DNA from: Simmondsia chinensis
Taxonomy: Eukaryota > Streptophyta > Magnoliopsida > Caryophyllales > Simmondsiaceae
Assembly: GCA_018398585.1 (NCBI GenBank)
Contig: JAGTTD010000008.1
Coordinates: 6,398,501 to 6,462,500 of the forward strand
Reading direction: 5' to 3'
Length of the DNA: 64,000 nucleotides
Part shown: one piece after another, positions 2-64,000 of the stretch
Numbering within the stretch: position 1 is the first letter of the stretch
How the letters are laid out: each line of letters starts with the position of its first letter
The notes under the pieces: generated by a model
What the model was told of the DNA's origin: nothing
Seen by the model: only the letters and a program-made list of their open reading frames with translations
The model's database searches: none
Program-made: the position numbers and the translations under genes

Positions 2-703
2 GCATATGATGATGAAATTTATAGTGATCTTCAATGGCTTAGTAAAGGACCAAGTAGACTAGTAAGGAGGTTCAAAAAGTTTAATTACAATGGCTTCAAG
101 TTCGGCACAAGAGATGTAGAGGCTAATTCTCCCACCCAAAATAGTGGAGTGGCTGTGAATTCAATCATTTCTGATGAAGATCAAGTCACGTACTATGGAA
201 CTTTTGTAGAAATGTTGGAATTAAATTACTATCAGGGAAGGATAGTTGTTCTACTTATGTGTGACTGGGCTGACTTGGGAAAAGGGGTTAAGCAGGATTT
301 ACTGGGCTTGACTTTAGTAAATTTTTGACACTTGTTGAAAAGTAATGAGCCATTTGTGTTAGCATCTCAAGCGTTCCAAGTGTTTTATACACCTGACCTA
401 GTTGAGGCAAATTGGAATGTTGTTACAAAGACAAAACCTAGAGGTGGTTTTGACATGGGAGATGAGGATCCCAACGAAGACACCAAGACAAACTTTGATT
501 GTGAGCCCATAATTGATCATAGTTTGCTAAATATAAATGAAGTTGAAGTTTGTCCTGAAGTCATTGAAGAAGACAATGATGGAAACGATTTAGAATTAGA
601 TAGCGGTGACAATGACGAAGACTTTGATTATGATTCAGAAGATGGAAGTGAAGAGGACCCCACTTTACATGATTATGATGATTATACTGATGATGAGAGT
701 TGA
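2..703 (+). pseudogene. TNP2-type transposase C-terminus (DUF4216-like), in-frame stop
   Basis: One frame reads from position 2 to 703. It contains the DUF4216 pattern: a tyrosine-rich DQVTYYG segment, then CDWAD, LVNF, ASQAFQVFY and KPRGGFDMGD. The C-terminus is very acidic (Asp/Glu/Asn-rich), as in other TNP2 proteins. A TGA at 326-328 follows LVNF where family members usually have a basic residue, so a CGA to TGA change would explain it. The protein probably continued from upstream of the window. In CACTA elements TNP2 is the catalytic transposase; the catalytic core is not visible here. Confidence 0.8.
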
Positions 704-11700: not shown

Positions 11701-12233
11701 TGAGGTTACTTGAGCAAATAAGAATAATCCCCTACCACTACATGATATGAGTCAAAAAACTCCATGATGTCCTACAAGTAAAAAGTTAGTCCATAAAAAT
11801 AAAATAACACTATAAATATTACATTACATAAAAAAAAATTTTAAAAAAATGCAATGAAAAATCATGCGGGAAAGAGCTAATTATTTATAAGTTCAAGGCT
11901 GAGAAGGCCACCAGTCCACATGCTTGGTCTCGTGCTCCTCGCCATCTCACTCGGGAGCCCAACTTTGCGTCCTTTTTTTTTTTTTTTTTTTTTTTTTTTG
12001 TAAATGTTATTATCAGGTAAAAGAAAATGTTATTGTTAAATCTTTGCTTTTAACAAAATTATGTAGCTCTTATTTTTTGTATTTTACTTAATTACTTTGA
12101 TAATAAATATTTTTACTTTGTCAATAACAATTCCTTCTTTTTGGGTTTTTTCCGTCTTTTTTGATGTGTTACTGCTTTTTGCAGAGGAGCTCACTAGCTC
12201 ACTAGACACATCCAAGGAGAGATACCTTGGTGT

Positions 12234-12959
12234 ATGTTTTTTACAGATGACATAGTTTTGGTAGGGGACTCCAGAGCGGACATAAATAAAAAGCTGGAAT
12301 TGTGGAGAGGTGATTTAGAATCGAAGGGCTTAAGGATTAGCAGATCTAAGACCGAGTACTTGGAATTCAAATTCGATCATTCCACCACGTCTAGTACAGA
12401 GGAGGTCAAGATAGAATCGGAGATCGTGCCGAGTAATGAGAGTTTCAAATACCTGGGATCTATGATACATCAGAATGATGAGGTGGATGAGGATGTCAAC
12501 AATATGATTAAAGTTGGCTGGCAGAAATGGAGGATGGCATCCAGGGCGCTTTGTGATAGAAAGTTCCCGCTAAAGCTGAAGGAAAAATACTATAGGACGG
12601 TAGTTAGACCGGCTATGTTATATGGGGCAGAGTGGGGCCCAATGAAACAAAATCAAACACGGAGGATGAAAGTGGCAGAGATGAGGATGCTGCGCTGGAT
12701 GTGTGGCCACACAAGGAAGGATAGGATCAGGAACAATGTAATAAGAGATAAATTGGGTGTAGCATCGATCGAGGATAAACTGAGGGAGCACCGCCTAAGA
12801 TGGTTTGGACATGTTAGCAGGAGGCCGACCACAACCCCAGTTAGGAGGTGTGAACAGCTACAAACGACGCTGGGAAGAAGAGGGAGGGGCAGGCCAATGA
12901 GGAGTTGGCTGACACGACCTAACCCACCTAAACCTAAGAGAGGATATGGCCTCAGATAG
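12234..12959 (+). pseudogene. RTE LINE 1 reverse transcriptase C-terminal fragment
   Basis: An open block of 241 codons. FFTDDIVLV near its start is the catalytic YxDD-type box (Phe-Thr-Asp-Asp). Then follow a SKTEYLEFKF thumb segment, FKYLGSMI, RPAMLYGAEWGPMK, RMLRWMCGHTRKDRI and LRWFGHVSRRP, the conserved C-terminal series of plant RTE proteins. The endonuclease and N-terminal reverse transcriptase are missing, so it cannot be active. The same frame continues upstream to about 12190 without a start. It differs in sequence from LINE 2 at 40528, so they are separate insertions of one family. Confidence 0.85.
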
Positions 12960-13203
12960 GGCACGATGGAGGGCTAGCATAAAGATAGCAGAGGTGACAG
13001 CGTAGGATAGCGAGGCGAGTGACTTGTAGTTTAAGATCCCTAGGCTAGCATTTTCATACTGTTTAGTTAGTTCTGATTACTAATCTGTTTTGGCATACAT
13101 ACATACATACTTAAATGCTTGCATGCCTTTTCCTTTAATTCAGGTGGTATATTATTTTTACTAAATCCATTGGTGATAAATTGATTCTATACTTGCAGGT
13201 TTA

Positions 13204-13338
13204 CACACACTTCAGGTTGGGGGTCCTCGGAAACAGCCTCCTTTCCACTCAGAAGGGGTAAGGCTGCGTACATCCACCCCTTCCAGACCCTGCTTATTGC
13301 GGGAGCTGCGAGGCACTGGGACTGTTGTTGTTGTTTGG
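13204..13338 (+). repeat. RTE LINE 1 3' tail shared with the SINE family
   Basis: Contains GTTGGGGGTCCTCGGAAACA, AAGGCTGCGTACATC, CAGACCCTGC, a GGGAGC block, GGCACTGGG and (TTG)n. The same series occurs at 42284-42407 and in the SINE copies. Confidence 0.85.
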
Positions 13339-16182: not shown

Positions 16183-16620
16183 TGTTATAGTTATATTGCA
16201 TCTACCACCAAAGTTTTGAACTCATGACATTTTTGCTATGCGTAGGGATACTTTTATATTTAATTTGATTACTTAGTAAGAACAGTAAAAATTATGGAAT
16301 TAATTTCACAAAAAGTTTTTGATGTTTGGATCAATGTGTCAATTTCACAAAAAGTTTTGTATTGCCAATAAAAGTGTATTTTTTAAATTGTTTGTTTAGT
16401 GGCAAATCATTGAAGTCGTGGTTGCCAATATCTAAGATTACCGGGATGACGAGTTATATACACTGGACTTGTACGATTGAGTACAAACTGGAGCCACACT
16501 TTATATAGCATAGGATTCTTTAAAGAGCAAACTCTAGATTTTTCCATATAAGATGGCCTACTCATGAAATGTATCAGATTTATCTTCCCATTTGATATCC
16601 ATATTCCCGCGGAGTATAGG

Positions 16621-16873
16621 TGACTTCTGAGGGCACCAACACGCTGTCACCGGATCCCATGAGAACTCCGAAGTTAAGCGTGCTTGGGCGAGAGTAGTAC
16701 CAGGATGGGTGACCTCCTAGGAAGTCCTCACCCTCAAGTTGGGGGCACTGAGAAACAGTCTCTCTTCAGGTTAACACACTGAAGGGGAAAGGCTGCATAC
16801 ATCCTCCCCCCCCCCCCCCCCCCCCCCGGTCCCTGCGTAGGCAGGAGCCCTTGAAGCATTGGGTATGTTCCTT
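16621..16873 (+). mobile_element. 5S rRNA-derived SINE, copy S1 (complete)
   Basis: A 253 bp unit with a 5S rRNA head (16648-16729 nearly identical to plant 5S) and a 3' tail (16736-16867) homologous to the RTE LINE tails at 13204 and 42284. It is flanked by an 18-19 bp direct repeat, ATTCCCGCGGAGTATAGG at 16603-16620 and ATTCCCGCGAAGTATAAGG at 16874-16892, as expected for LINE-mediated insertion. A poly-C run (about 16806-16827) interrupts the tail. There are no LTRs or primer binding site, which argues against Cassandra, the plant TRIM element carrying 5S in its LTRs. Confidence 0.88.
16648..16729 (+). promoter_or_regulatory. 5S rRNA-like core with internal Pol III promoter
   Basis: Matches the plant 5S rRNA body with about three differences in 82 bases, counted by eye against the remembered consensus. 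Box A region AGTTAAGCGTGCTTGG (16672-16687), the intermediate element GCGAGAG (16688-16694) and box C region GGATGGGTGACCTCC (16703-16717) are all present. These bind TFIIIA/TFIIIC in true 5S genes, so the element could be transcribed internally. It is not a functional 5S gene: the 5' end is altered and no T-run terminator follows the 5S part. Confidence 0.85.
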
Positions 16874-16904
16874 ATTCCCGCGAAGTATAAGGCCGGCAAA
16901 CTTG

Positions 16905-17350: not shown

Positions 17351-18421
17351 TGTCACGGCTATTTTATGAGTTAGGTGCACGGTGAGGTTTGCTCACCCGA
17401 ACAAGAACAAGCAACAAAGAAATGAACACAATAGAAATTCAAAAGGAAATATGAGACAATTTTTCACACGAAATGGAGGGACTTTCTCATTAATAATTTC
17501 TGAGATTACAAGATATCCAAATGAATGTAAATTACACATATTTATAGACCTTGACAACCCCAAGGTCATGCGTAACCGTTCCCGCCCTTTTTCCCCTCTT
17601 TCTCCAAGCCGTGCCCCACTCTCTCTTGCATGCCTTGGGCGGTTACTAGTCAAGCTGCTCAAAGCACATGTCTTATTTATTTAGGCACCACATTTAAACT
17701 GGCGGTTACCTCCACTTCAGCCCACTCTCCCATTTTCCCGCTCTTTTCCTCGTTTGAACTGGTCAACGGTCATTCCCGCTTCTTTTCCTTTGGTAACCGT
17801 CTCCAATATGTGTCACGTGCTCTTTCTCACCATTCTTCAAGGTCGGGCTTCATTGGGCCTCATTGGGCCTACTTGGGCCTGGGCCAGGCCAGTGCCCTGC
17901 ACTGGGCCAGTGCCTATCGCTACTCGTCTGCGCTCTTGGGTCGGCCCAATGCCATGACACTACCTAGGTCAAGCCCTGCCTATGTCCTGACATTGTCTAG
18001 GACCGAGCCAGGGCCTTGTCATGGCACTGTCTGGGGCCGAGCCTGGGTCTTGTCATGACACTGTCTGGGGCCGAGCCTGGGCCTTGTCATGACACTGTCC
18101 TGGGTCGTGCCAGACCCTTGTCACGACACTGTCCTGGAGCGTGCCTGGCCCTTGTCATGGCACTGTCCTGGGCCGTGCTAGGTCCTTGTCACGACACTGT
18201 CCGGGGCCGTGCCAGGCCCTTGTCATGACACTGTCTTGGGTCCGCGTCCATCTCGGTTCCCACTTTGTCCATCACTTAGGCCTAGGTCCGTGGAGGCCTA
18301 ATGCACCCCTAACTGAGTGTGCACCATGTCCACACAATGCCAATCATTGGCAGCCCATTTGACACGGCACAGGCTCAAGGCGCACACCTGTGCCCCGGTC
18401 CGAAGTGTCACGGGTCTTACA
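17351..18421 (-). mobile_element. Solo LTR with internal minisatellite
   Basis: On the minus strand it starts TGTAAGACCCGTGACA and ends AGCCGTGACA. It is flanked by a perfect 5 bp duplication GTAGG (17346-17350 and 18422-18426). A TATA-like TCTATAAATATG on the minus strand near 17540 marks the promoter side. The part around 17960-18240 is a GC-rich 34 bp tandem repeat. At about 1.07 kb with no internal region, this is a recombination-derived solo LTR, inserted in sequence next to gypsy 2. Confidence 0.82.
17960..18240. repeat. 34 bp minisatellite inside the solo LTR
   Basis: About eight units of 34 bp (one of 33) following CTGTCCTGGGCCGTGCCAGG then CCCTTGTCATGACA. Because 34 is not a multiple of three, several frames stay open, producing spurious open frames here. 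Confidence 0.85.
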
Positions 18422-24498: not shown

Positions 24499-24622
24499 TC
24501 GGTTGGGGGCACTACGAAACAGCCTCTCTTCAGGTTAACACCCTGAATGGGGAAGGCTGCATACATCCGCCCCCCCAGACCCTGCGTAGGCAGGAGCCCT
24601 TGAGGCACTGGGTATGTTCCTA
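24499..24622 (+). repeat. SINE/RTE 3' tail fragment, copy S2
   Basis: Reads GTTGGGGGCACTACGAAACA, AAGGCTGCATACATCC, CAGACCCTGCGTAGGCAGGA and GGCACTGGGTATGTTCC. It shares the GGGTATGTTCC ending with S1 rather than a TTG tail. The 5S head is missing. Confidence 0.8.
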
Positions 24623-30814: not shown

Positions 30815-31606
30815 TATTTGTGGTGTTTAGTAGCCGATCGGAAAGAAACTGAACACAAGCTACTTTTAAAGATTATCGAGACCCCCTTTTTCTCTTTTGT
30901 TTTTCTTGTCCTTCTTTCTTTCTTCACCTTGTTTATTTATAGTATTATGGTGGACTTAGGTGTTATTTTTGACATGGGCGAAAGGACAAGTGTCCCTTTT
31001 TTACTTGCAAGTTAAGTCTTCTTTTGTTTAAGCTAATATCATTTTAGATGTGTCTTAAAAGAAGTAAAAGTGGATAAGTTATATTGTTTTGTTCTTATAT
31101 GGGTGAATTACGTTGATTTTTATCCCTATTGGGCGAATTGTGTTGTTTTTATCCCTACTGGGCAAACTACGTTAATTTTTCTCCTACTGGGCGAATTATG
31201 TTGTTTTTTATTCCTACTAGGCGAATTGTGTTATTTTTCCTCCTACTGGGTGAATTATGTTATTTTTTTACCCTACTGGGTGGATTGTACTGTTTTTTAT
31301 CCCTACTGGGTAAATTGCGTTGTTTTTCCTCCCACTGGGAGAATTGTGTTGTTTTTTATCCCTGCTGGGCGAATTGTGTTGTTTTTCCTTCTACTGGATG
31401 AATTGTGTCATTTTTTGTCCCTATTGGATGAATAGTGTTGGTTTGTTTCCCTACTGGGTGCATTGTGTTGGTTTTTCTCCTATTGGGTGAATAGTGTTAT
31501 TTTTTAACCCTACTAGGTGAATTGTGTTTTTTTGTCCCTACTTTGTATTGTTTTTCCTCCTACTAGACGAATTGCGTTAATTTTTTGGTTTTTTCTAAAT
31601 TACAAA
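30815..31606. mobile_element. Insertion with 8 bp duplication carrying a 30 bp minisatellite
   Basis: Flanked by TAGATATT at 30807-30814 and 31607-31614. Outside it the gypsy 3 frame is continuous: the minus-strand frame reading LGEVKYL on the right meets LLDEFVEL on the left. Ends are weakly inverted (TTTGTGGTGTTTAG against TTTGTAATTTAG). The 8 bp duplication fits a hAT-like element. Most of its length is the tandem array at about 31095-31590. Confidence 0.7.
31095..31590. repeat. 30 bp minisatellite
   Basis: About sixteen degenerate units following TACTGGGCGAATTGTGTTGT then TTTTTATCCC. Unit length near 30 keeps all three plus-strand frames open for long stretches, giving repetitive hydrophobic peptides that are not genes. 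Confidence 0.85.
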
Positions 31607-37998: not shown

Positions 37999-38257
37999 AT
38001 ACAACAACAATAACGACAGACCCAGTGCCTAAAGGGTTCCCGCCTCAGTGATGCCTTGAGGGGTAAATGTACGCAGCTTTACCTTTTTAGGGTGTAACCC
38101 TACCGAGAGGCTATTTCCGAGGACCCTAACCTTATAGGGTTAGCAACACGAGGACTTTCCAGGAGGTCGCCCATCCTGATAGTACTCTCACCCAAGCACA
38201 CTTAACATCGGAGTTCTAATGGGATCCGGTGCATTAGTGCCTTGTAAATGAACCCTA
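37999..38257 (-). mobile_element. 5S-derived SINE, copy S3 (near full length)
   Basis: On the minus strand it starts AGGGTTCATTTACAAGGCAC, runs through the whole 5S-like head (about 38142-38255; box A as GTTAAGTGTGCTTGGG, box C as AGGATGGGCGACCTCC) and the RTE-type tail, and ends GTCTGTCGTTATTGTTGTTG. The head starts like true 5S, which shows the family contains essentially the whole 5S sequence. Confidence 0.85.
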
Positions 38258-38261
38258 TATG

Positions 38262-38339
38262 TACATTAGTGCATTAGTGCATACATCCACCCCCTCAGAC
38301 CCTTCATAGGTGGGAGCTCTTAGGGCACTCGGAATGTAT
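38262..38339 (+). repeat. SINE/RTE tail fragment in opposite orientation, copy S3b
   Basis: GTGCATACATCCACCCCCTC, CAGACCCTTCATAGGTGGGA and GGGCACTCGGAATGTATG match the S1/S2-type tail. It abuts S3 head to head. Confidence 0.65.
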
Positions 38340-38455
38340 GTTGCTTTCTATTTATTATATTTTATATAGTGAATAATAACGATAATATATACATACCATT
38401 TCATATTTAGGTACTCGTTAAATTTTTGTTGAATATAAATTATGCATTACTTTTT

Positions 38456-40060: not shown

Positions 40061-40180
40061 ACAATTGATAAAAATCTTATTTAAGATCTAACGGTATAGA
40101 TTTAATTTTCTTATATTTTTACGAAATTTGTATTCTCATTCCAGCCGCTCCCATGTATATATACGCACACACACACACCC

Positions 40181-40422
40181 CACAACAATAACAACAACAG
40201 ACCCACTGCCTCAAGGGCTCCCACATAAGCAGGGTCTGGGAGGGGTGGATGTACACAGTCTTATCCCTTCAGGGTGTAACCCTGCCGAGAGGCTGTTTCC
40301 GATGACCCCCAACTTCGTAGGATTGGCAACACGAGGATTTCTCATAATGTCGCTCTAGCCTAAGCACGCTTAACTTGGAAGTTCTAATGGGATGCCTTAG
40401 TACCTGGTAAATAAGCCCTCCC
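40181..40422 (-). mobile_element. 5S-derived SINE, copy S4
   Basis: Minus strand: head starts CTTATTTACCAGGTACTAAG, keeps box A (AAGTTAAGCGTGCTTAGG) but has a damaged, shortened box C region. The tail is complete with GGGTCTGTTGTTGTTATTG. A CA microsatellite adjoins it at about 40166-40179. Confidence 0.83.
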
Positions 40423-40532
40423 ATATTTTTCGAAAAATGATCTAGGACCTTTACGTGACGATAGAACAACCTTATTGATTGCTTAAACGACCAACCTCCT
40501 TTTATATATTCATTAGTTATAAATTATTTTGC

Positions 40533-41990
40533 AGGCAAGTTAGCCCCGAGGAAGTCAAGGAAGCCCTGAAATTCATGGAAAGGGGTAAAGCAGTTGGCCC
40601 AGATGACATACCCATAGAAGTACGGAAATGCCTTGGACAGAAGGGTGTCAGTTAACTAATTAAACTATTTAACCAAATTCTCCAGGGGAGAAGATGCTTG
40701 AAGAATGGAGGAAGAGCACAGTGATCCCGATATATAAGAATAAAGGCGACATTCAGAGTTGCGCCAACTATCAGGGTATCAAACTAATGTGCCACACTCT
40801 GAAGTTGTGGGAACGAGTCATAGAGAGGAGGCTAAGGCTACAGACAAAGGTGTTCGAGAACCAATTTGGATTTATGCCCAGGAGATCAATCATAGAAGCC
40901 ATCCACATCCTAAGGCGAACAATAGAGCAATACAGGGAGAGACAAAAGGACCTTCACATGGTTTTCATTGATTTAGAGAAGGCATATAATAGGGTGCCAA
41001 GGGAGGTCCTTTGGAGAGTTTTGGACAGGAAAGGCATTCCGGTGCCATACATCCGAGCCATTAGAGACATGTATGAGGAGGCATAAACTATAGTGCGCAC
41101 AGAGGACGGGGAGACAGACGTTTTCCCAATAACAGTAGGGTACACCAGGGGTCGGCTTTGAGCCCCTACTTGTTCATTCTGGTTCTGGACGAGCTCACTA
41201 GACACATCCAGGGATGTGTACCTTGGTGCATGCTTTTTGCAGACGACATAGTGTTAGTGGGGGAGTCGCGGGAAGAGGTAAATGAGAAACTGGAATGGTG
41301 GAGAGGGGCACTAGAGTTGAAGGGTTTATGACTAAGCAGAGCCAAGACCGAGCACATGGAACTCAAATTCGATCCGTCCACCACGCCTAGCCGGGAAGAC
41401 GTCAAGATTGGATCTGAGACCATAGCAAAGAAGGAAAGCTTCAGGTACTTGGGGTCCATGGTACAGGACAACGGTGAAGTTGACGACGATGTCAACAACT
41501 GGATTAAAGCGGGATGGCATAAGTGGAGATTGGCCTCCACGGTACTTTTTGATAGAAAGTTCCCCTTGAAGCTAAAGGGAGGGTACTAGAAGACGGTCGT
41601 GAGGCCTGCCATGACGTATGGGGGGGAGTGCAAGGCGATGAAACAACAACACACATAGAAGATGAAGGTGGCGGAGATGCGAATGCTGAGGTGGATGTGC
41701 GGACACACAAGGAAGGATAGGATCGGAAACGATATCATAAGAGACAAATTGGGCGTAGTCCCCATCAAAGATAAATTGAGAGAGCAACGTTTGAGGTGGT
41801 ACGGTCATGTTAGAAGGAGACCGGACAACGCTCCAGTAAGGAGGTGCGAACAACCCTTACTACATTAGGCAGGAGAGGAAGAGGCAGGCCAAAAAAGAGA
41901 TGGATGGAGACGATCCGACAAGACCTCACCCACCTGAACCTTCAGGAGGAGATGGCCTTAGATGGGGCCCAATAGAGGGCTAGTATAGGG
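40533..41990 (+). pseudogene. RTE LINE 2 reverse transcriptase
   Basis: In order: VSPEEVKEALKFMERGKAVG (N-terminal RT), [78 protein letters not shown] (first catalytic Asp), [18 protein letters not shown], then [14 protein letters not shown] (Phe-Ala-Asp-Asp catalytic box near 41231-41275). The C-terminal series RYLGSMVQDNGEVDDDVNN, AEMRMLRWMCGHTRKDRI and LRWYGHVRRRPDNAPVRRCE follows. Stops and frame changes occur near 40650, 41083, 41150, 41329, 41588 and 41657. The catalytic boxes survive but the frame does not; the endonuclease domain is missing by 5' truncation. Confidence 0.87.
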
Positions 41991-42283
41991 GTTATAGATG
42001 TTCCAGTTGGAATAGAGTAGTTTAGCTTTTTAGTGCTAGACCGTGTTATCCTCCTGGTGCACTTAGGTTGCGTACTTGCTCCCATGAGCTTCTACATGCA
42101 GGCATGTATACCTGCCTACCTATCATTTGATTTCATTTGATTTTTGATCATTTGATTTCTGCTTGATGTGTCTTGCTTGGTGTCTTGTGTCTTGGGTCTT
42201 GTGTGTTTTGTGCTTGCTGTCTTAACCGCTTTGTTGCTTTCCTGTTGCCAGGTCTCATGCTCTTGGCAGTGGACCAGTATCTC

Positions 42284-42407
42284 AGGTTGGGGCTCCTCGG
42301 AAACAACCTCTCTTCAAGGTAGCCCCCTGAAGGGGAAAGGCTGCGTACATCTACCCTCCCCGGACCCTGCTGTTGTGGGAGCCCTTTGGCACTGGGTTTG
42401 TTGTTGT
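42284..42407 (+). repeat. RTE LINE 2 3' tail shared with the SINE family
   Basis: AGGTTGGGGCTCCTCGGAAA, GAAAGGCTGCGTACATCTAC, CGGACCCTGC, TGGGAGCCCTTTGGCACTGG and a TTG-rich end align block by block with S1-S5. Confidence 0.88.
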
Positions 42408-43093: not shown

Positions 43094-44420
43094 TATATTA
43101 GTGCATAAAACGTAATTCTCATACACCTTATAACTTCATGATTTTGATACGTATATGAATCAAGAAATAACTTGATTAATACCAATCATTGAATGACCTG
43201 TAGAATATGCAAAAGAGAATGGTTTACATAGAAATCTTATTTCTCTCTCTTAACCACTTTCATGGTAGGATGGAGTATCGTACTCTTATTTATTGTTCAT
43301 GCTTATTAGGTTGCGGTTATGAGAGTGGCCAGATTGTTATTTATAGGGGAGCAAGGAGTGTGTTTCATAAAAATACCTAAGTTATATGTTCTCTTGGTAA
43401 TAAACATATCCTTTCAGTAATAGATAAACATTTTCATTGATAGGCGAGTGTTATCCCGTGCAATGCATAGAGGCTTTTGTGTTTTTTAATTTTCTATACT
43501 ATCACATTGCAATTGTATTAAATCTTGCTTTCTCTTGCTTTTTTTTTTTTTTTTTTTGTTAATCATATTTACTTTGTAAGTTTTATATTATACCATAAAT
43601 ATGTAAAACTTAAATTATATACATAAGTATTAGTACATAAAATAACATTTTCCATAGATCTTAAACTTAATGACATGCAAACATTAATAGTAAGGACATA
43701 CCTTAATTAATATCAATTATTGATTGAACGTTGAGTATGGATACCGAAAAAAATCTAATTTCTCCCTCTTAACCATTTTCTTTAATATATAATGTACGAT
43801 GAAGTATCGTACTTTTCCTATCTTTCATGTTTATACGTTTATAAAAAAATCTAATTTCTCCCTCTTAACCACTTTCTTTAATATACAATATACGATAGAG
43901 TATTGTATTTTTACTTATCTTTCATGTTTATGTGCTTATATGTTGTGGTAGAGAGGACCAAATTATTATTTATAGAGGAGTAAAGGATGTTTTCATCAAA
44001 ACATCAATGATCGTGTTCTTTTGTTAGTAGACGTGTCCTTTCAATAATAGACATGTATCTTCATTAATAGATATGTCTCTCAACTAAAAGATATGTCTCT
44101 TTACTAAGAAACATATCAAATGGACCTTTTTTTGGTAAGTATATCAAAGGGACATGCCTCTTAATTAAAAGACATGGTCTTTCAGCAAGACATATATATT
44201 TTCCTTAAGAGACATATGTGTTTTCTTCGATGGGGCTTTAGAAATGCATGATTTAGGATTTGAGGGTTTTTGATTTGACAATAATATAATAGAAAGATAT
44301 GTCTTTCACAAAATGAAATATCTCTTCGCTAAGAAACATATCCTTTCTCCAAAAGACATACCTTCTTACTAAAAGTTATTTTCTTTCATTAAGACATTTG
44401 TTTTCTTAAGAGACATACAA
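43005..44420. repeat. Diverged tandem duplication with TATA-bearing units and RAGACATRTC repeats
   Basis: 43005-43390 and 43590-44010 share order and sequence: an AACTTAAATTATATA start, TCTTTTAACCACTTTC-like, ATGGAGTATCGTACTC-like and TTATTTATAGRGGAG blocks. The second copy contains an ~84 bp internal duplication (43750-43920). Read on the minus strand each copy has a TATA-like CTATAAATAA. From about 44000 to 44420 a ~20 bp word such as AAAGACATGTCTCTT recurs. This may be LTR-derived, but I cannot identify the family. Confidence 0.5.
43029..43091. repeat. (TG)n microsatellite
   Basis: About 31 uninterrupted TG units, next to a short TA run at 43020-43028. Confidence 0.95.
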
Positions 44421-44664
44421 TAGCAAACCTCTTCAGAAACCAATTGGATTAAACATAATTAAAACCACTTAATCATCAAATGCAAAATAAATATTTAATA
44501 AAACAATCATTAAAATATCATGTGGTCATAATTATTCTTGCAGCATGTAGCAAAAGCACTCATGATGACACTCCATCGATCGGTAATAGAGTAACTTTCT
44601 TAACTAATATAAATCTCATTTTTTTTGGGTAAGTATTATAAATCTCATATGCTCTTTAATAAGC

Positions 44665-44885
44665 CACAACAACAATAACAGATCCAATACCTCAAGGACT
44701 CCGGCATAAGCGAGGTCTGGTAGGGATGGATGTACGCAGCCTAACCCCTTCAGGGTGTAACCCTACCGAGAGGTTGTTTCTGAGGACTCCCAACCTTATA
44801 GGGTTGGCAGCACGAGGACTTCCTAGGAGAACTTCAAAGTTCTAATTGGATCCAGTGCCTTAGTGCCTGATAAATGAACCCTATA
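44665..44885 (-). mobile_element. 5S-derived SINE, copy S5, deleted in the 5S head
   Basis: Minus strand: starts AGGGTTCATTTATCAGGCAC, keeps GGATCC and AGAACTTTGAAGTT, then jumps to CTCCTAGGAAGTCCTCGTG. About 45-50 bp covering most of box A through box C is lost. The tail is complete and ends in GTTATTGTTGTTGTGG. Confidence 0.83.
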
Positions 44886-45702: not shown

Positions 45703-47592
45703 ATGGAATCAAACGACAATCTGGTGATTGTTGGTGTCACCACTAGATCAGCAGCAGCACGAGCAGCCTCCAGATCAGCCAATGCAACTGAGGCTGATGC
45801 ATCTGTACAAGAGTGGGTGACGATCGCGCAATTGGACAGTAGATTGGACAACAAATTTGCATCAATGCTGGTTTAATTCAAGCAAGCTGTCATTGAATCT
45901 TTACCGCAACAGATAGAGGAAAGAGTGGAGCAACAAGTACAGCAGGTGGAATCTAGGATTACAGATCAGGTCTCTCGACAAACTCAGGATCTAGAGGAGA
46001 GAATCAGCCAGCGAATTGATCAACAGATCTAGCAGCTTGAAGTTAAAATTACTGAGAATCGAAGGCCCAATCATGATCCCTTATTACCTGCTAGCTTGAT
46101 TCAGACAGCTCCGCAATTGAGGCCACACAATGTGGAGAGGGAGAACCTTCCCAATATTGGAGGTACAAGCAATGGCGGTGAGAGGAATGTGGAACCAAAT
46201 CAAGGGGCATTGACACCAGATGGAAGACAGGGTAACAATGAACAAGCGTTACCTCAATCATCCAACTAGAATGCTGGAACTGGACCACGAGTGACTTAAC
46301 TGGACAGACCTCCAGATCATGTGATGCAGCAGCGATCATGAAGTAATGAGGAATCTTCTAACTCCAGAAGCCAGAATCACAGGCAGTCGCGAGTCCAGAT
46401 TGAGGCATTTGAAGGAAAACAACCTCACTCATGGCTAAGGAGGTGTGAACGATACTTCCATTTTTATCACATTGAAGAATCTAAAAAAGTACAGATAGCT
46501 GTTGTATACTTGCTAAGGGATCACGAGGTATGGTTCTATAGCTTGTTAAGAAGTAGACCTTTCATTACATGGAGTGAATTTGCAAGAGCCTTGTGTGCAC
46601 GTTATAGTGATGAAGATGATAGTGATATACTGGACAAATTCAACAAAGTTAAACAAGAAACGACTGTGAAGGACTACATGACTAGATTTGAAAATCTAAG
46701 GGCTAGCATTGTGAATGAAATTGAGGCCTCTGAATCCTATTATGTAGCTGCTTTCATTAGTGGGCTGAAGCCTAAGCTAAAAAACTTGGTGAAGGCCGTA
46801 GATCCCATTGATTTATCCATGGCTTTTGCTAAAGCTAAACTATATGAAGCCACTGGATTGACATCTAATGATGTATCCAAGCCTAGAAGCAGCAGCTCCC
46901 ATCTGCAACAGGGAAGATTCAGGCCCAACAGAACAGAAAATCATCAGCAGCAGAAGTTATGCTATCGTTGTAATCAACCTTATCAATTTGGCCACAAGTG
47001 TAATCCCAAGTACCTCATGTCGGCTAAAGGTACTAAGGTTGGCGAGCTTTCAGAAGAAGAAGACACTGAGGATGATAGCACTAATTCTGATCAGGAGATT
47101 GAGGAGGATCCAGATGAAACTGCAGTGGAAATTTCAGTAAAAGCTCTTATCGGTAATGGAGCTCATAGCACAATCCGGATCAAGGGAAAGGCTGGAAAAA
47201 GATCCATTATCATCCTTATTGATAGTGGAAGCACTCATAGCTTCATTGATCCCAAGGTTGTCAAGAAGGTGGGCCATGAAGTGATACAAACTCATCCTCT
47301 CGCTGTGACAGTGGCTAATGGCAAAACTGTCATGACTCAAAACAAATGCAAGGGGTTTTTCTGGCTGATGCAAGACCGTAAGTTCCAATATGATTTCAGA
47401 ATCTTGCCGTTGGGAGGGTGTGACATGGTGCTTGGGGTGGATTGGATGAGAACTTTCAGTCCAGTATTGTTTGATTATGCCAATCTCACAGTCTCATTTG
47501 AAGTTCAAGGCTCGAAGGTTACACTACAAGGCATTGCAGAACAGGCTCAAATTCAAGTAATTACAGGAAGTAAGATGAAAAAGGGTCTTTAA
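45703..47592 (+). pseudogene. Gypsy 4 gag and protease
   Basis: One frame from ATG at 45703 (MESNDNLVIVGVTTRSAAAR). Gag core FEGKQPHSWLRRCERYFHFY near 46410, zinc knuckle CYRCNQPYQFGHKC near 46960, protease ILIDSGSTHSFIDPKV (catalytic Asp-Ser-Gly) near 47215, and a GGCDMVLGVDWM motif. In-frame stops at 45874, 46030, 46267, 46297 and 46339 all lie in the N-terminal coiled-coil-like part. Each could come from a single C-to-T change of Gln or Arg codons. The 46510-47592 part is continuous up to a TAA at 47590. Confidence 0.88.
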
Positions 47593-47643
47593 AGCTGTGC
47601 ATACCAGCGGGTAGGCCAATTATTTGCCATATCTTCAGTTGAA

Positions 47644-49584
47644 ATGATCAGCATAACAGAACCGGAAGTGCAGCTGCTGGTTACAGAATTCAGTGATGTC
47701 TTTGAAGTGCCTAGGTGCTTGCCTCCCAAGAGGAGTTTGGATCATGAAATACCTCTCAAAGAGGGTGCTGTACCAGTGAAGATAAGGCCTTCTAGATACC
47801 CACATGCTCAAAAGACAGAAATTGAAAAGCAGGTAGAGGAGTTGCTCAAGACAAACTTCATTCGAGCCAGCCATAGCCCTTTTGCCTCCCCGGTTATTCT
47901 TGTCAAGAAGAAGGATGGCTCAGCAAGCATGTGTATTGATTATAGGCAACTCAACTCTATGACGGTAAAGGATAAGTTTCCTATACCAGTTATAGATGAT
48001 TTGTTGGATGAGTTAAATGGAGCTCGAGTCTTTTCCAAGTTGGATCTTCGCCAAGGATATCACCAGATCAGAGTAGGAGAGCATAATGTGTACAAGACTG
48101 CTTTCCGGACACACCATGGTCTCTTCGAATTTGTAGTCATGCCATTTGGCTTGACCAACGCTCCAGCAGCATTCCAGGCTCTCATGAATGATGTCTTCAA
48201 ACAATTTCTTAGGAAATTTGTTTTAGTTTTCTTTGACGACATCCTCATCTATAGTGCATCAATTGAAGAGCATTTGGGACATTTGAAGGAGGTTTTTCTG
48301 GTCATGCATGAACACAAGCTGTATGCTAAGTTGGGCAAGTGTTCTTTTGCTCAAACACATTTGGAATATTTGGGTCATGTGATCTCCTTTGAGGGTGTTG
48401 CCACCGATCCATCAAAAGTATAAGCCATGAGGGATTGGGCTGTTCCGGTCACCTTGAAAATATTAGGGGGAATTCTGGGTTTAACTGGCTACTATCGCAA
48501 GTTCGTAGCTCACTATGGGTCCATAGCCAAGCCCCTAACTAATTTGCTCAAGAAGGATTCCTTCAGATGGTCAGAAAATGCTCAAAAGGCCTTCAATGCT
48601 CTCAAAACAGCAATGTGCAGAGCTCCAGTTCTTGCTATGCCAGACTTCTCCTCAAGCTTCATTCTGGAGACTGACACAAGTGGAAGTGGTATTGGGGCAG
48701 TGTTGTCTCAGGAAGGGAGGCCTATAGCTTACCTCAGCCAAGCCTTGAGTGCAAAACATCAAGCTCTTTCCACATACGAGAAAGAGTACCTTGCAATCTT
48801 GCTTACAGTTGATAGGTGGAGGCACTACTTGGATGGGCACCATTTCATCATTAAGACTGATCATCAAAGTCTTAAACACTATTTAGAGCAGAAAATCGTC
48901 ACAAGGATCCAAAGAAAGGGGCTAATGAAGATGTTGGGGCTGAATTATAGCATCGAGTACAGAAAAGGCAGAGAAAACTATGCAGCAGATGCACTGTCAC
49001 GCAAGTTTGAAGCCCATCAGCAAGGATCCCTTGGAGCCATTTCCGTGATTTCTCCTGCTTGGATGGAAGAGATACACCAATCATATGAGAATGACACCTT
49101 TGCACAAGAATGCATTGCTGCAGCAAGCATTGGCAAGGCGAGCAATCTGGCTGCTGAAACAGGAATTTCTGTAACCCGAGGTGTGATCAGAGTTCAAGGG
49201 AAGCTGTACGTTGGCCAATCTACTGATCTAAGACAACAAGTCATCAGTGCTGCTCATGATTCTTCATGGGGAGGACACTCAGGCATTGAGGGGACATATC
49301 AGAGGTTAAAACTTCATTTTAGTTGGCCTGGCTTGAAGAAGGAAGTGGCTAACTTTGTGCAAAGTTGTGAGGTTTGTCAACAAACCAAACTTAGTGATCA
49401 TAGATACCAAGGTTTGCTTCAACCCTTGCCTGTCCCTGAAGGTGTTTGGCAACACATAAGCATGGATTTCATTGAAGGCTGGCCCAGATCAGAAGGGAAA
49501 GAAGTAATTTGGGTAGTTATTGATCGCTTCACCAAATCTAGTCATTTCTTTGCCTTAGCCGACCTGTCACTGCAGAGAAATTAG
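47644..49584 (+). pseudogene. Gypsy 4 reverse transcriptase, RNase H and integrase N-terminus
   Basis: Same frame as gag. RT: VKKKDGSASMCIDYRQLNS, FSKLDLRQGYHQIRV (first Asp), MPFGLTNAPAAFQALMN and [10 protein letters not shown] (Phe-Asp-Asp box). A TAA at 48421 stands where Gln is expected. Tether: GLTGYYRKFVAHYG. RNase H: ETDTSGSGIGAVLSQEG, STYEKEYLAI, KTDHQSLKHYL and NYAADALSRK. Integrase: the HHCC zinc motif (HDSSWGGHSG and CEVCQQTK near 49255-49390) and ISMDFIEGWP (first Asp). A frameshift near 49560 ends the frame at 49582-49584. Confidence 0.9.
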
Positions 49585-54277: not shown

Positions 54278-54284
54278 ATTGTTT

Positions 54285-54503
54285 TGGTTAAATTTGGTTC
54301 AATATGTGAGCCAGATCCAAATGCCCCGAGTAACAAATATTTGCAGGTTCTGGACGAAAGCGGGACTCGAGCTCTCAATAAGTCAGCAGCTGCTTTCTCA
54401 GTGAGAGCTCGAGTCCCACTCTCGTCCAGAACCTACAAATATTTGTTACTCGAGGCATTTGGGTCTGGCTTACAGACTGAACCAAATTTAACCGAAACAG
54501 GGT
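54285..54503. repeat. Large palindrome of LTR 3' ends
   Basis: The left arm GGTTAAATTTGGTTCAATAT... (54285-54378) and the right arm (about 54411-54503, ending CCAAATTTAACC) are about 92 bp inverted copies with roughly eight mismatches and a short centre containing CAGCAGCTGCTTTCTC. Each arm equals the LTR 3' end at 52957-53056. The left arm abuts the start of the minus LTR with only about 3 bp between (AACAATC then TGTATAG), like a two-LTR junction. Confidence 0.75.
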
Positions 54504-62998: not shown

Positions 62999-64000
62999 TT
63001 TATTTCTTGGAATTGTTAATGAGAAGTTTCTTCAATTTCGCTCATTTTTTTAAATCCTAGAACCGAGTATATATAGGCACACCCCATGAAACCCTAGATA
63101 ATCAACTGAACCACCAATCACGAGCTTGAAGCTCGACCTGGGTCGTATCCTCCACTCCATCGAACTTGGCCCCTTACAGTATGAAACCGGGCTCCACACG
63201 AAGTAACCCAACAGTATCTACACTTCTCTGCCTCTTTTCTCTGTTCTTTGTTTGATTTTCAAATATGTTGGCTCTCAATAATTATTTCTAATGGGAGCAA
63301 ATAACCCTACCCCCCCCCGCGAACTCCCCCTTGTTCCCCAGTCAAACTGCCACCTTTTAGGGCACGATGGACCCTGCCATGTCGGTGGTTCCTCAGGTCT
63401 CGGGACAGCAGGTCTTACCTTGGGTATGCCGATTTCCCTTGTGTCGATTCCATATTCTTGGATCTATTCTTTAACCGTCTAACGGATGCCGGCCTCACCA
63501 TCTTCGATTAATCATTAGCCCCCTTGAGACCATAAGTATCTCAATTTCTTTACTATTGCATCCCTAACAACCACCCCCCCCCCCCCCCCCCCCCAAAAAA
63601 AAACCATTCCTCTCCACAGGTAGCCTCCCCATCAACTTCAGCCTCCCTTCGCCAACCACCCATAGTCTGTTAAATGGAATCGTAGGGCCTATCGGTTCAA
63701 TGGTAGGATTAGTGGCTCTATTGGTAGTGGCATCGATCCTACAAGTAGCGAGTTGGCTACGCCTTGTGATGGTAGTGACAATGTTGCTAGTGCCGGTACT
63801 TTCGCCTCCCCTTTCCATCAAACCCCTAATATTTACTAAACTATCCCTCCCCCCGCTTCCCTTTTACAAGGATACCAAATATTGTTACTCTAAAATTGGA
63901 AACAAAACTAACTACCCTGCCTAAAGGAAACAATTTTACATGCTTTTAGTTTCCCATCAATTAATGAGTTATATAAATGGTACCTAACTCCCCCTCCTCC
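62999..64000. other. Copia LTR remainder, then unassigned sequence
   Basis: The first ~100 bp continue the LTR interrupted by copia 2. The rest has poly-C runs (63311-63318 and about 63574-63593) and no recognised coding region; a Gly-rich minus-strand frame here is a product of the C-run. Confidence 0.4.

Follow-up and report, generated by a model that had tools for sequence, protein, structure and literature searches.

The genome of jojoba (Simmondsia chinensis) harbours a dispersed family of short elements with a 5S rRNA head and an RTE-type LINE tail, which very probably moves as a SINE, would be transcribed by Pol III from the 5S promoter and would be copied by a LINE enzyme. In the window, referring to the whole 64-kb stretch of DNA analysed here, and in the rest of the assembly, the family is marked by a recurrent head-tail junction, a tail common to LINE 3′ ends, long target-site duplications (TSDs), a T-stretch insertion signature and many dispersed copies, with no LTR pair around its copies in the window. 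This amounts to a genuine plant SINE family with 5S heads, high in copy number and including young copies; it belongs to a known kind of element (the 5S-derived SINEs) in a form, 5S plus RTE tail, that is apparently new.

Copy 1 occupies about 16619-16872 on the plus strand of the window and consists of a 5S head and an RTE-type LINE tail between direct repeats. A sequence-only reading of this DNA had placed a 5S plus LINE-tail unit between direct repeats at about 16603-16892, and Rfam and the repeats locate it there. The parts of copy 1 are as follows.

16591..16593, plus strand: TTT, insertion signature of the Tn-TA type, 9-11 nt upstream of the left duplication
16602-16618, plus strand: left target-site duplication, TATTCCCGCGGAGTATA (repeat comparison, spacing control)
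16629..16735, plus strand: 5S-rRNA-derived head of copy 1 (Rfam, core alignment, genome matches)
16736..16872, plus strand: RTE-LINE-type tail of copy 1 (tail searches, alignments), with a C-run at 16806-16827
16873-16889, plus strand: right target-site duplication, TATTCCCGCGAAGTATA (repeat comparison, spacing control)

The Rfam 5S rRNA model matched 16625-16740 (+) with 72.6 bits and an E-value of 2e-13, and the promoter core at 16648-16729 was identical to plant 5S at 78 of 82 positions. The near-perfect 5S body described earlier holds for this core, the match in copy 1 being strong only there. The direct repeats TATTCCCGCGGAGTATA and TATTCCCGCGAAGTATA, earlier given as near-identical and 18-19 bp long, do flank copy 1 and measure 17 bp with one mismatch (score 15). 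This score was reached by 7 of 3000 equally spaced pairs in the window, in about 1% of 400 random draws and, within the blind sample described below, by 16 of 2000 pairs, so the duplication of copy 1, taken alone, is moderate evidence. That the repeats enclose the whole unit is true apart from its left margin, where the 10 nt from the left repeat to 16629 depart from the family consensus; family copies start with ACCAAAGAGGG right after the duplication. The tail contains a run of 22 C at 16806-16827, which is possibly a hypermutable site or a hotspot of assembly error, and the 40-copy consensus has a C-run at the same place. Beyond the 3′ side of copy 1, a tandem array with a 34-bp unit extends over 17978-18260 (7.6 copies, 84% matches).

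In total, eight LINE-type tails were found in the window by tail-sequence search, at 13221, 16741, 24505, 38261 (a fragment, excluded from tail alignment A1) and 42284 on the plus strand and at 38138, 40308 and 44802 on the minus strand; matches of the tail query at 63567-63594, outside these eight, involved the C-run only and were dropped. By alignment, four of the eight tails carry a 5S head upstream at a homologous junction (16621 on the plus strand; 38138, 40308 and 44802 on the minus strand). The copies other than copy 1, and two tails without a head, are given below.

38000..38259, minus strand: copy 2, with a 5S head at 38259-38138 and a tail to about 38000 with (TTG)n (Rfam, tail search, alignment)
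40177..40424, minus strand: copy 3, with a degenerate 5S head (40424-40321) and a tail with (TTG)n (tail search, Rfam)
44660..44885, minus strand: copy 4, with an internal deletion in the 5S head and a tail with (TTG)n (tail search, alignment)
24504..24620, plus strand: tail without a head, sharing 91% identity with that of copy 1 (tail search, alignment)
38278..38343, plus strand: tail fragment, head-to-head with copy 2 (tail search)

The head of copy 2 (38259-38138, minus strand) matched the Rfam 5S model with 61 bits and an E-value of 2.4e-10, that of copy 3 scored 21.4 bits, below the gathering score, and copy 4 gave no Rfam match. The second locus proposed by the sequence-only reading, 37999-38257, indeed contains a 5S head and a tail; it lies on the minus strand, and scoring of its flanks for repeats revealed no clear target-site duplication. 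A convincing duplication is present around one of the four window copies only, which counts against the SINE reading. Between copies 1 and 2, the head cores are identical at 73 of 82 positions and the tails at 72 of 110 (Fisher p 1.6e-4). The better-kept head core fits a constraint on the promoter, as judged from these two sequences, and a fresh capture of 5S sequence is a conceivable alternative for the closer heads. Short repeated GTGCATTAG motifs lie between copy 2 and the head-to-head tail fragment on the plus strand (38259-38343).

Searching the 831-Mb assembly (35 contigs) with copy 1 yielded 40 scored head-plus-tail matches on 23 of the 35 contigs, which, as the best of 7499 first-look candidates, are biased towards young copies. 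All 40 span both head and tail, and their identity is 90-93% apart from copy 1 itself (100%). A lack of any repeated 5S/tail junction elsewhere, named beforehand as fatal to the proposal, is contradicted by these 40 matches and by all nine 5S-like sequences of the blind sample. The family consensus, built from copy 1 plus 39 copies fetched with about 300 bp of each flank, is about 250 bp long and starts with ACCAAAGAGGGCACC; the mean divergence of the copies from it is 3.6% (range 0.8-6.1%), and its core is identical to plant 5S at 79 of 82 positions. With this short unit of about 245-250 bp, its spread over 23 contigs and nine occurrences in the blind 200 kb, the family shows the many dispersed copies of a SINE, and the earlier proposal of a SINE family with a 5S head as candidate Pol III promoter gains a genome-wide family in its support.

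Exact duplications of variable length, 10-21 bp, surround 31 of the 40 genome copies, in line with the earlier statement that no 5-bp duplication is involved; the remaining nine have no exact duplication of at least 10 bp. When 5′ and 3′ flanks were taken from different copies as a control, exact duplications of at least 10 bp appeared in 3 of 1000 cases. In 18 of these 31 copies a TTT is found 8-14 nt ahead of the duplication, while control positions taken from the same flanks have one in 106 of 713 cases (p 3.6e-8); this interval was chosen once the base counts had been seen and brackets the published 10 nt. Passages of PMC13295347 describe a T stretch located some 10 nt 5′ of the TSD start as an insertion signature of plant RTE LINEs and their SINEs, and report TSDs starting with T and then A for plant elements mobilised by RTE. 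Over the 31 copies, the exact TSD match opens with T in 14 cases and with A in another 14, and copy 1 fits the T-then-A pattern; the boundary of the TSD is ambiguous because the tails end in T.

The blind sample comprised 20 stretches of 10 kb, each at position 5,000,001 of one of 20 contigs and picked before looking. Family profiles detected 20 tail loci in these 200 kb (two adjacent matches in L067 being counted as one), nine of which carry a 5S head. All nine 5S-like sequences found by BLAST are joined to a LINE-type tail or its start, with most of the tail in seven, one (L056) cut by the end of the stretch and one (L059) retaining about the first 24 nt, and no free 5S gene occurs among the nine. 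Extrapolation from nine per 200 kb gives a rough figure of about 37,000 copies in the genome (Poisson 95% about 17,000-71,000). For the TSDs, a score of at least 13 was obtained in four of the eight copies tested, L056 being left out, and those of the others are weak or absent; random pairs reached this in 19 of 2000 cases. The copy at L052 is 5′-truncated within the 5S head and bounded by repeats identical at 17 of 19 positions, which fits what target-primed reverse transcription gives. Another 5S-headed SINE, L062a, lies inside an RTE reverse transcriptase frame (L062 135-1356), and a second SINE with a different junction type is located downstream at 1103. Among the 11 headless blind tails, one (L057) lies 3′ of RTE reverse transcriptase sequence.

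The LINE character of the tail, asserted earlier, is borne out by two RTE-type LINE remnants of the window, whose 3′ ends share the tail.

12078..12999, plus strand: RTE-type LINE reverse transcriptase fragment (Pfam RVT_1, protein relatives)
13221..13336, plus strand: 3′ end of the first LINE, homologous to the SINE tails, with (TTG)n (tail search, alignment)
40673..42002, plus strand: second RTE-type LINE reverse transcriptase region (Pfam RVT_1)
42284..42407, plus strand: 3′ terminus of the second LINE, with homology to the SINE tails (tail search, alignment)

The tails at 13221 and 42284, two of the four headless tails in the window, are located 220-280 nt 3′ of reverse transcriptase sequence on the same strand. 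For the protein of 12078-12999, 1640 database relatives were retrieved, with 53-62% identity among the 120 listed, and the organism-named relatives among the matches listed are from plants, for instance Capsicum, Lycium and Nicotiana. We take this protein to belong to the RTE clade from its motifs (MLRWMCGHTR... and LRWFGHV). The (TTG)n ends of the window LINE tails are a second ground for this assignment, as such ends are given for plant RTE LINEs in a part of PMC3747384. Over 106-117 aligned columns, identity between the SINE tails and the 3′ ends of the two window LINEs amounts to 68-81%, too low to pin down the actual partner LINE; both window LINEs are fragments, and no intact RTE LINE was seen.

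Three types of junction between head and tail can be distinguished. Type A (...GTCCTCACCCTCAGGTTGGGGG) is found in copy 1 and the 40-copy consensus, with L056 and L062a close to it; type B, close to ...GTGTTGCCAAYCCTATAAGGTTGGGGG, in window copies 2-4, L048 9673, L050, L066 and L052; and type C, close to ...GTGTTGCACCCCTCAGGTTGGGGG, in L062 1103, L048 7932 and L059. A short T run closes the type A copies, and (TTG)n the type B copies of the window (2-4). At the place matching the type C junction the window LINE copies read TCAGGTTGGGG, so that type C reads as a nearly unaltered 5S 3′ end followed by LINE sequence, and one variant keeps a junction of GTGTTGCACCCCT directly followed by CAGGTTGGGGG. 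This suggests, and does not prove, that the family originated by template switching from LINE RNA to a 5S transcript, in which cDNA synthesis would have started on the LINE 3′ UTR (CAGGTTGGGGG...) and then switched to the 3′ end of the 5S transcript, creating the fusion of head and tail.

As for its present propagation, transcription by Pol III from the 5S head and mobilisation by an RTE LINE are both likely, judging from the strong evidence of its anatomy. By Rfam and the core alignments, the 5S-derived head includes the internal control region, as in elements of the SINE3 type. TFIIIA and Pol III would act on the box A / IE / box C region that the head has kept, Pol III would read through the 5S end into the tail, the RTE reverse transcriptase would recognise the tail, and target-primed reverse transcription would insert copies at new sites. 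A TTTT occurs inside one of the 40 genome copies and none of the four window copies, so that transcription by Pol III could extend into the tail.

RNA structure was considered as well. The folded head of copy 2 was not more stable than its shuffles (z -1.0), and the predicted tail structure showed two-sided change in 3 of 28 pairs, with an unfavourable covariation term, a weak signal that was given no weight in favour of the family. Copies 2 and 4 each possess a perfect 9-bp closing stem, TATAGGGTT/AACCCTATA, reached by none of 2000 shuffles in either case. The terminal arms of copy 1 are 6 bp long, as reached by 196 of 2000 shuffles (206 of 2000 for real 5S), copy 3 is without terminal arms of 5 bp, and the blind relatives L048 9673 and L066 are without TATA. 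Because copy 3 is armless, copy 1 not significant and these two relatives without TATA, a conserved terminal stem was dropped and is not claimed.

Three other explanations deserve weighing. That the copies represent a Cassandra-type LTR retrotransposon with 5S sequence inside its LTRs, or solo LTRs of such an element, is highly improbable. The target duplication of Cassandra is 5 bp, whereas the TSDs here are 10-21 bp, including 14 bp around the first unit alone at locus L044. Cassandra does have in its favour that it is the known plant element carrying 5S sequence (PMC10853983, in part), together with a second 5S core in L044, which has the orientation of the first and lies 432 bp downstream of it; since a 14-bp duplication belongs to the first unit alone, the second core appears to be a separate insertion. 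Within L044 (293-849), the second core begins at the 5′ end of the element and its tail lies beyond the stretch. A single 5S core is present in 39 of the 40 genome copies, within about 300 bp of each flank. The absence of LTRs, as stated in the sequence-only reading, was confirmed for all four window copies, around which no LTR pair exists within about 1.3-1.5 kb, and the direct repeats nearby are one-sided (for copy 1, 17983-18242; for copy 4, 43747-43940 and 44069/44295). Moreover, the unit is about 250 bp against the 563-968 bp of Cassandra with its 5S in mid-LTR, and it ends in a tail with homology to the 3′ ends of LINEs.

There is very little to recommend independent processed 5S rRNA pseudogenes, inserted beside or into LINE 3′ ends without forming a self-propagating family. 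5S transcripts can be retrotransposed and the tail is LINE-derived, as this explanation would have it, but all 40 scored copies have the same junction, three related junction types recur in the blind sample, and the duplications enclose head and tail as a single unit. A LINE-derived or DNA-level repeat containing 5S by chance and spread by segmental or tandem duplication would agree with the abundance of the copies and of the LINE tail; it is hardly credible given 23 contigs, individual TSDs and the T-stretch signature of the RTE type. A 5S-headed family moving as a SINE is the reading retained here.

Among known plant SINEs, those of the Angio-SINE superfamily are tRNA-derived and have a conserved 37-bp 3′ Angio-domain. 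The tail of the Simmondsia family presumably resembles the 3′ Angio-domain of the Au SINE and the Angio-SINE superfamily. Au SINEs also end in a short T stretch (PMC3747384 Table 2), as does the subfamily of copy 1. The TS SINE of tobacco and the RTE-1_Stu LINE of potato have about 100 bases of 3′ end in common and are both (TTG)n-ended, as described in part of PMC3747384, so that TS is likewise a plant SINE with the 3′ end of an RTE-clade LINE, and three of the four 5S copies in the window also carry (TTG)n. The head of TS is tRNA-derived, in contrast to the 5S head of the Simmondsia chinensis family, and an ARAGORN scan of the 64-kb window gave no tRNA gene.

The nearest analogue is Ped-1, a SINE of the springhare with a 5S head and a BovB/RTE tail (PMC3747384 Table 1), which has the same two-part design of 5S rRNA head and RTE-clade LINE tail. 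Ped-1 is mammalian and its tail comes from BovB; compared by description, Ped-1 and the jojoba family are likely of independent origin. The animal SINE3 and other 5S-derived SINEs (zebrafish SINE3, Deu-SINEs, OS-SINE1, HaSE3) are short non-coding retroposons with a 5S promoter head, as here, but their hosts are animals and the tails of the Deu-SINE types derive from CR1 or RSg-1 LINEs, according to a section of PMC3747384. An origin independent of animal SINE3 is likely because tail and host differ, and SINE3 families are said to have several origins in a passage of PMC10886601. The TRIM element Cassandra resembles the family as a plant retroelement with a 5S-derived Pol III promoter and differs in its LTRs, methionine primer site, polypurine tract, mid-LTR 5S and lack of a LINE tail (PMC10853983, in part).

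No plant 5S SINE was seen among the papers listed in searches of the open literature, Repbase, SINEBase and most subscription journals being outside the scope of the search, so the earlier suggestion that this is not an established plant family is supported, not proven. Besides those of animals, 5S SINEs are listed for Aspergillus (PMC5063351), the three land-plant SINE/LINE pairs in Table 1 of PMC3747384 all have tRNA promoters, a passage of PMC10853983 cites the gain of promoters such as 5S for animal SINEs, and one in PMC10886601 offers the speculation that the 5S promoter of Cassandra came from a SINE3-like insertion into an LTR. We put at slightly better than even the full proposition that this is the first 5S-headed SINE of a plant, joining a complete 5S RNA to an RTE tail in parallel with Ped-1 and independently of the SINE3 of animals, with tens of thousands of copies, some of them recent, and that it is the sort of plant 5S SINE, lacking until now, from which the 5S promoter of Cassandra has been proposed to come. 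A high-copy 5S family in a plant means that the fusion of 5S and RTE exists outside animals too, and with a plant 5S SINE the speculated step from SINE3 to the Cassandra promoter would become testable. In Simmondsia chinensis, copies with a 5S head may interfere with the counting of 5S rDNA copies, with 5S probes and with the mapping of 5S-derived small RNAs.

Two wider searches accompanied the analysis. IMG/VR and GTDB contigs gave no match to the junction, the tail or plant 5S and no relative of the LINE protein, and a control 25-mer of plant 5S was also unmatched, which makes this search uninformative on plants. Comparison of an antisense frame across the junction with predicted proteins gave 37 matches, eight inspected and four aligned; the solid match covers the 5S half only and no chimera was seen, in what is a weak test.

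The window contains other repeats apart from the family. A tandem array with a 30-bp unit in 15 copies occupies 31100-31542, and an inverted repeat lies at 54280-54499, its two arms of 110 nt being 88% complementary with no spacer between them; a weak Rfam MIR529 match falls within it (40.5 bits, below gathering), and the repeat has the look of a MITE or of a microRNA precursor. At 46342-49584, three consecutive open stretches on one strand encode Gypsy-type gag, protease, reverse transcriptase, RNase H and integrase zinc-binding domains, and the first of these stretches (gag) has relatives of at most 47% identity in assorted flowering plants.
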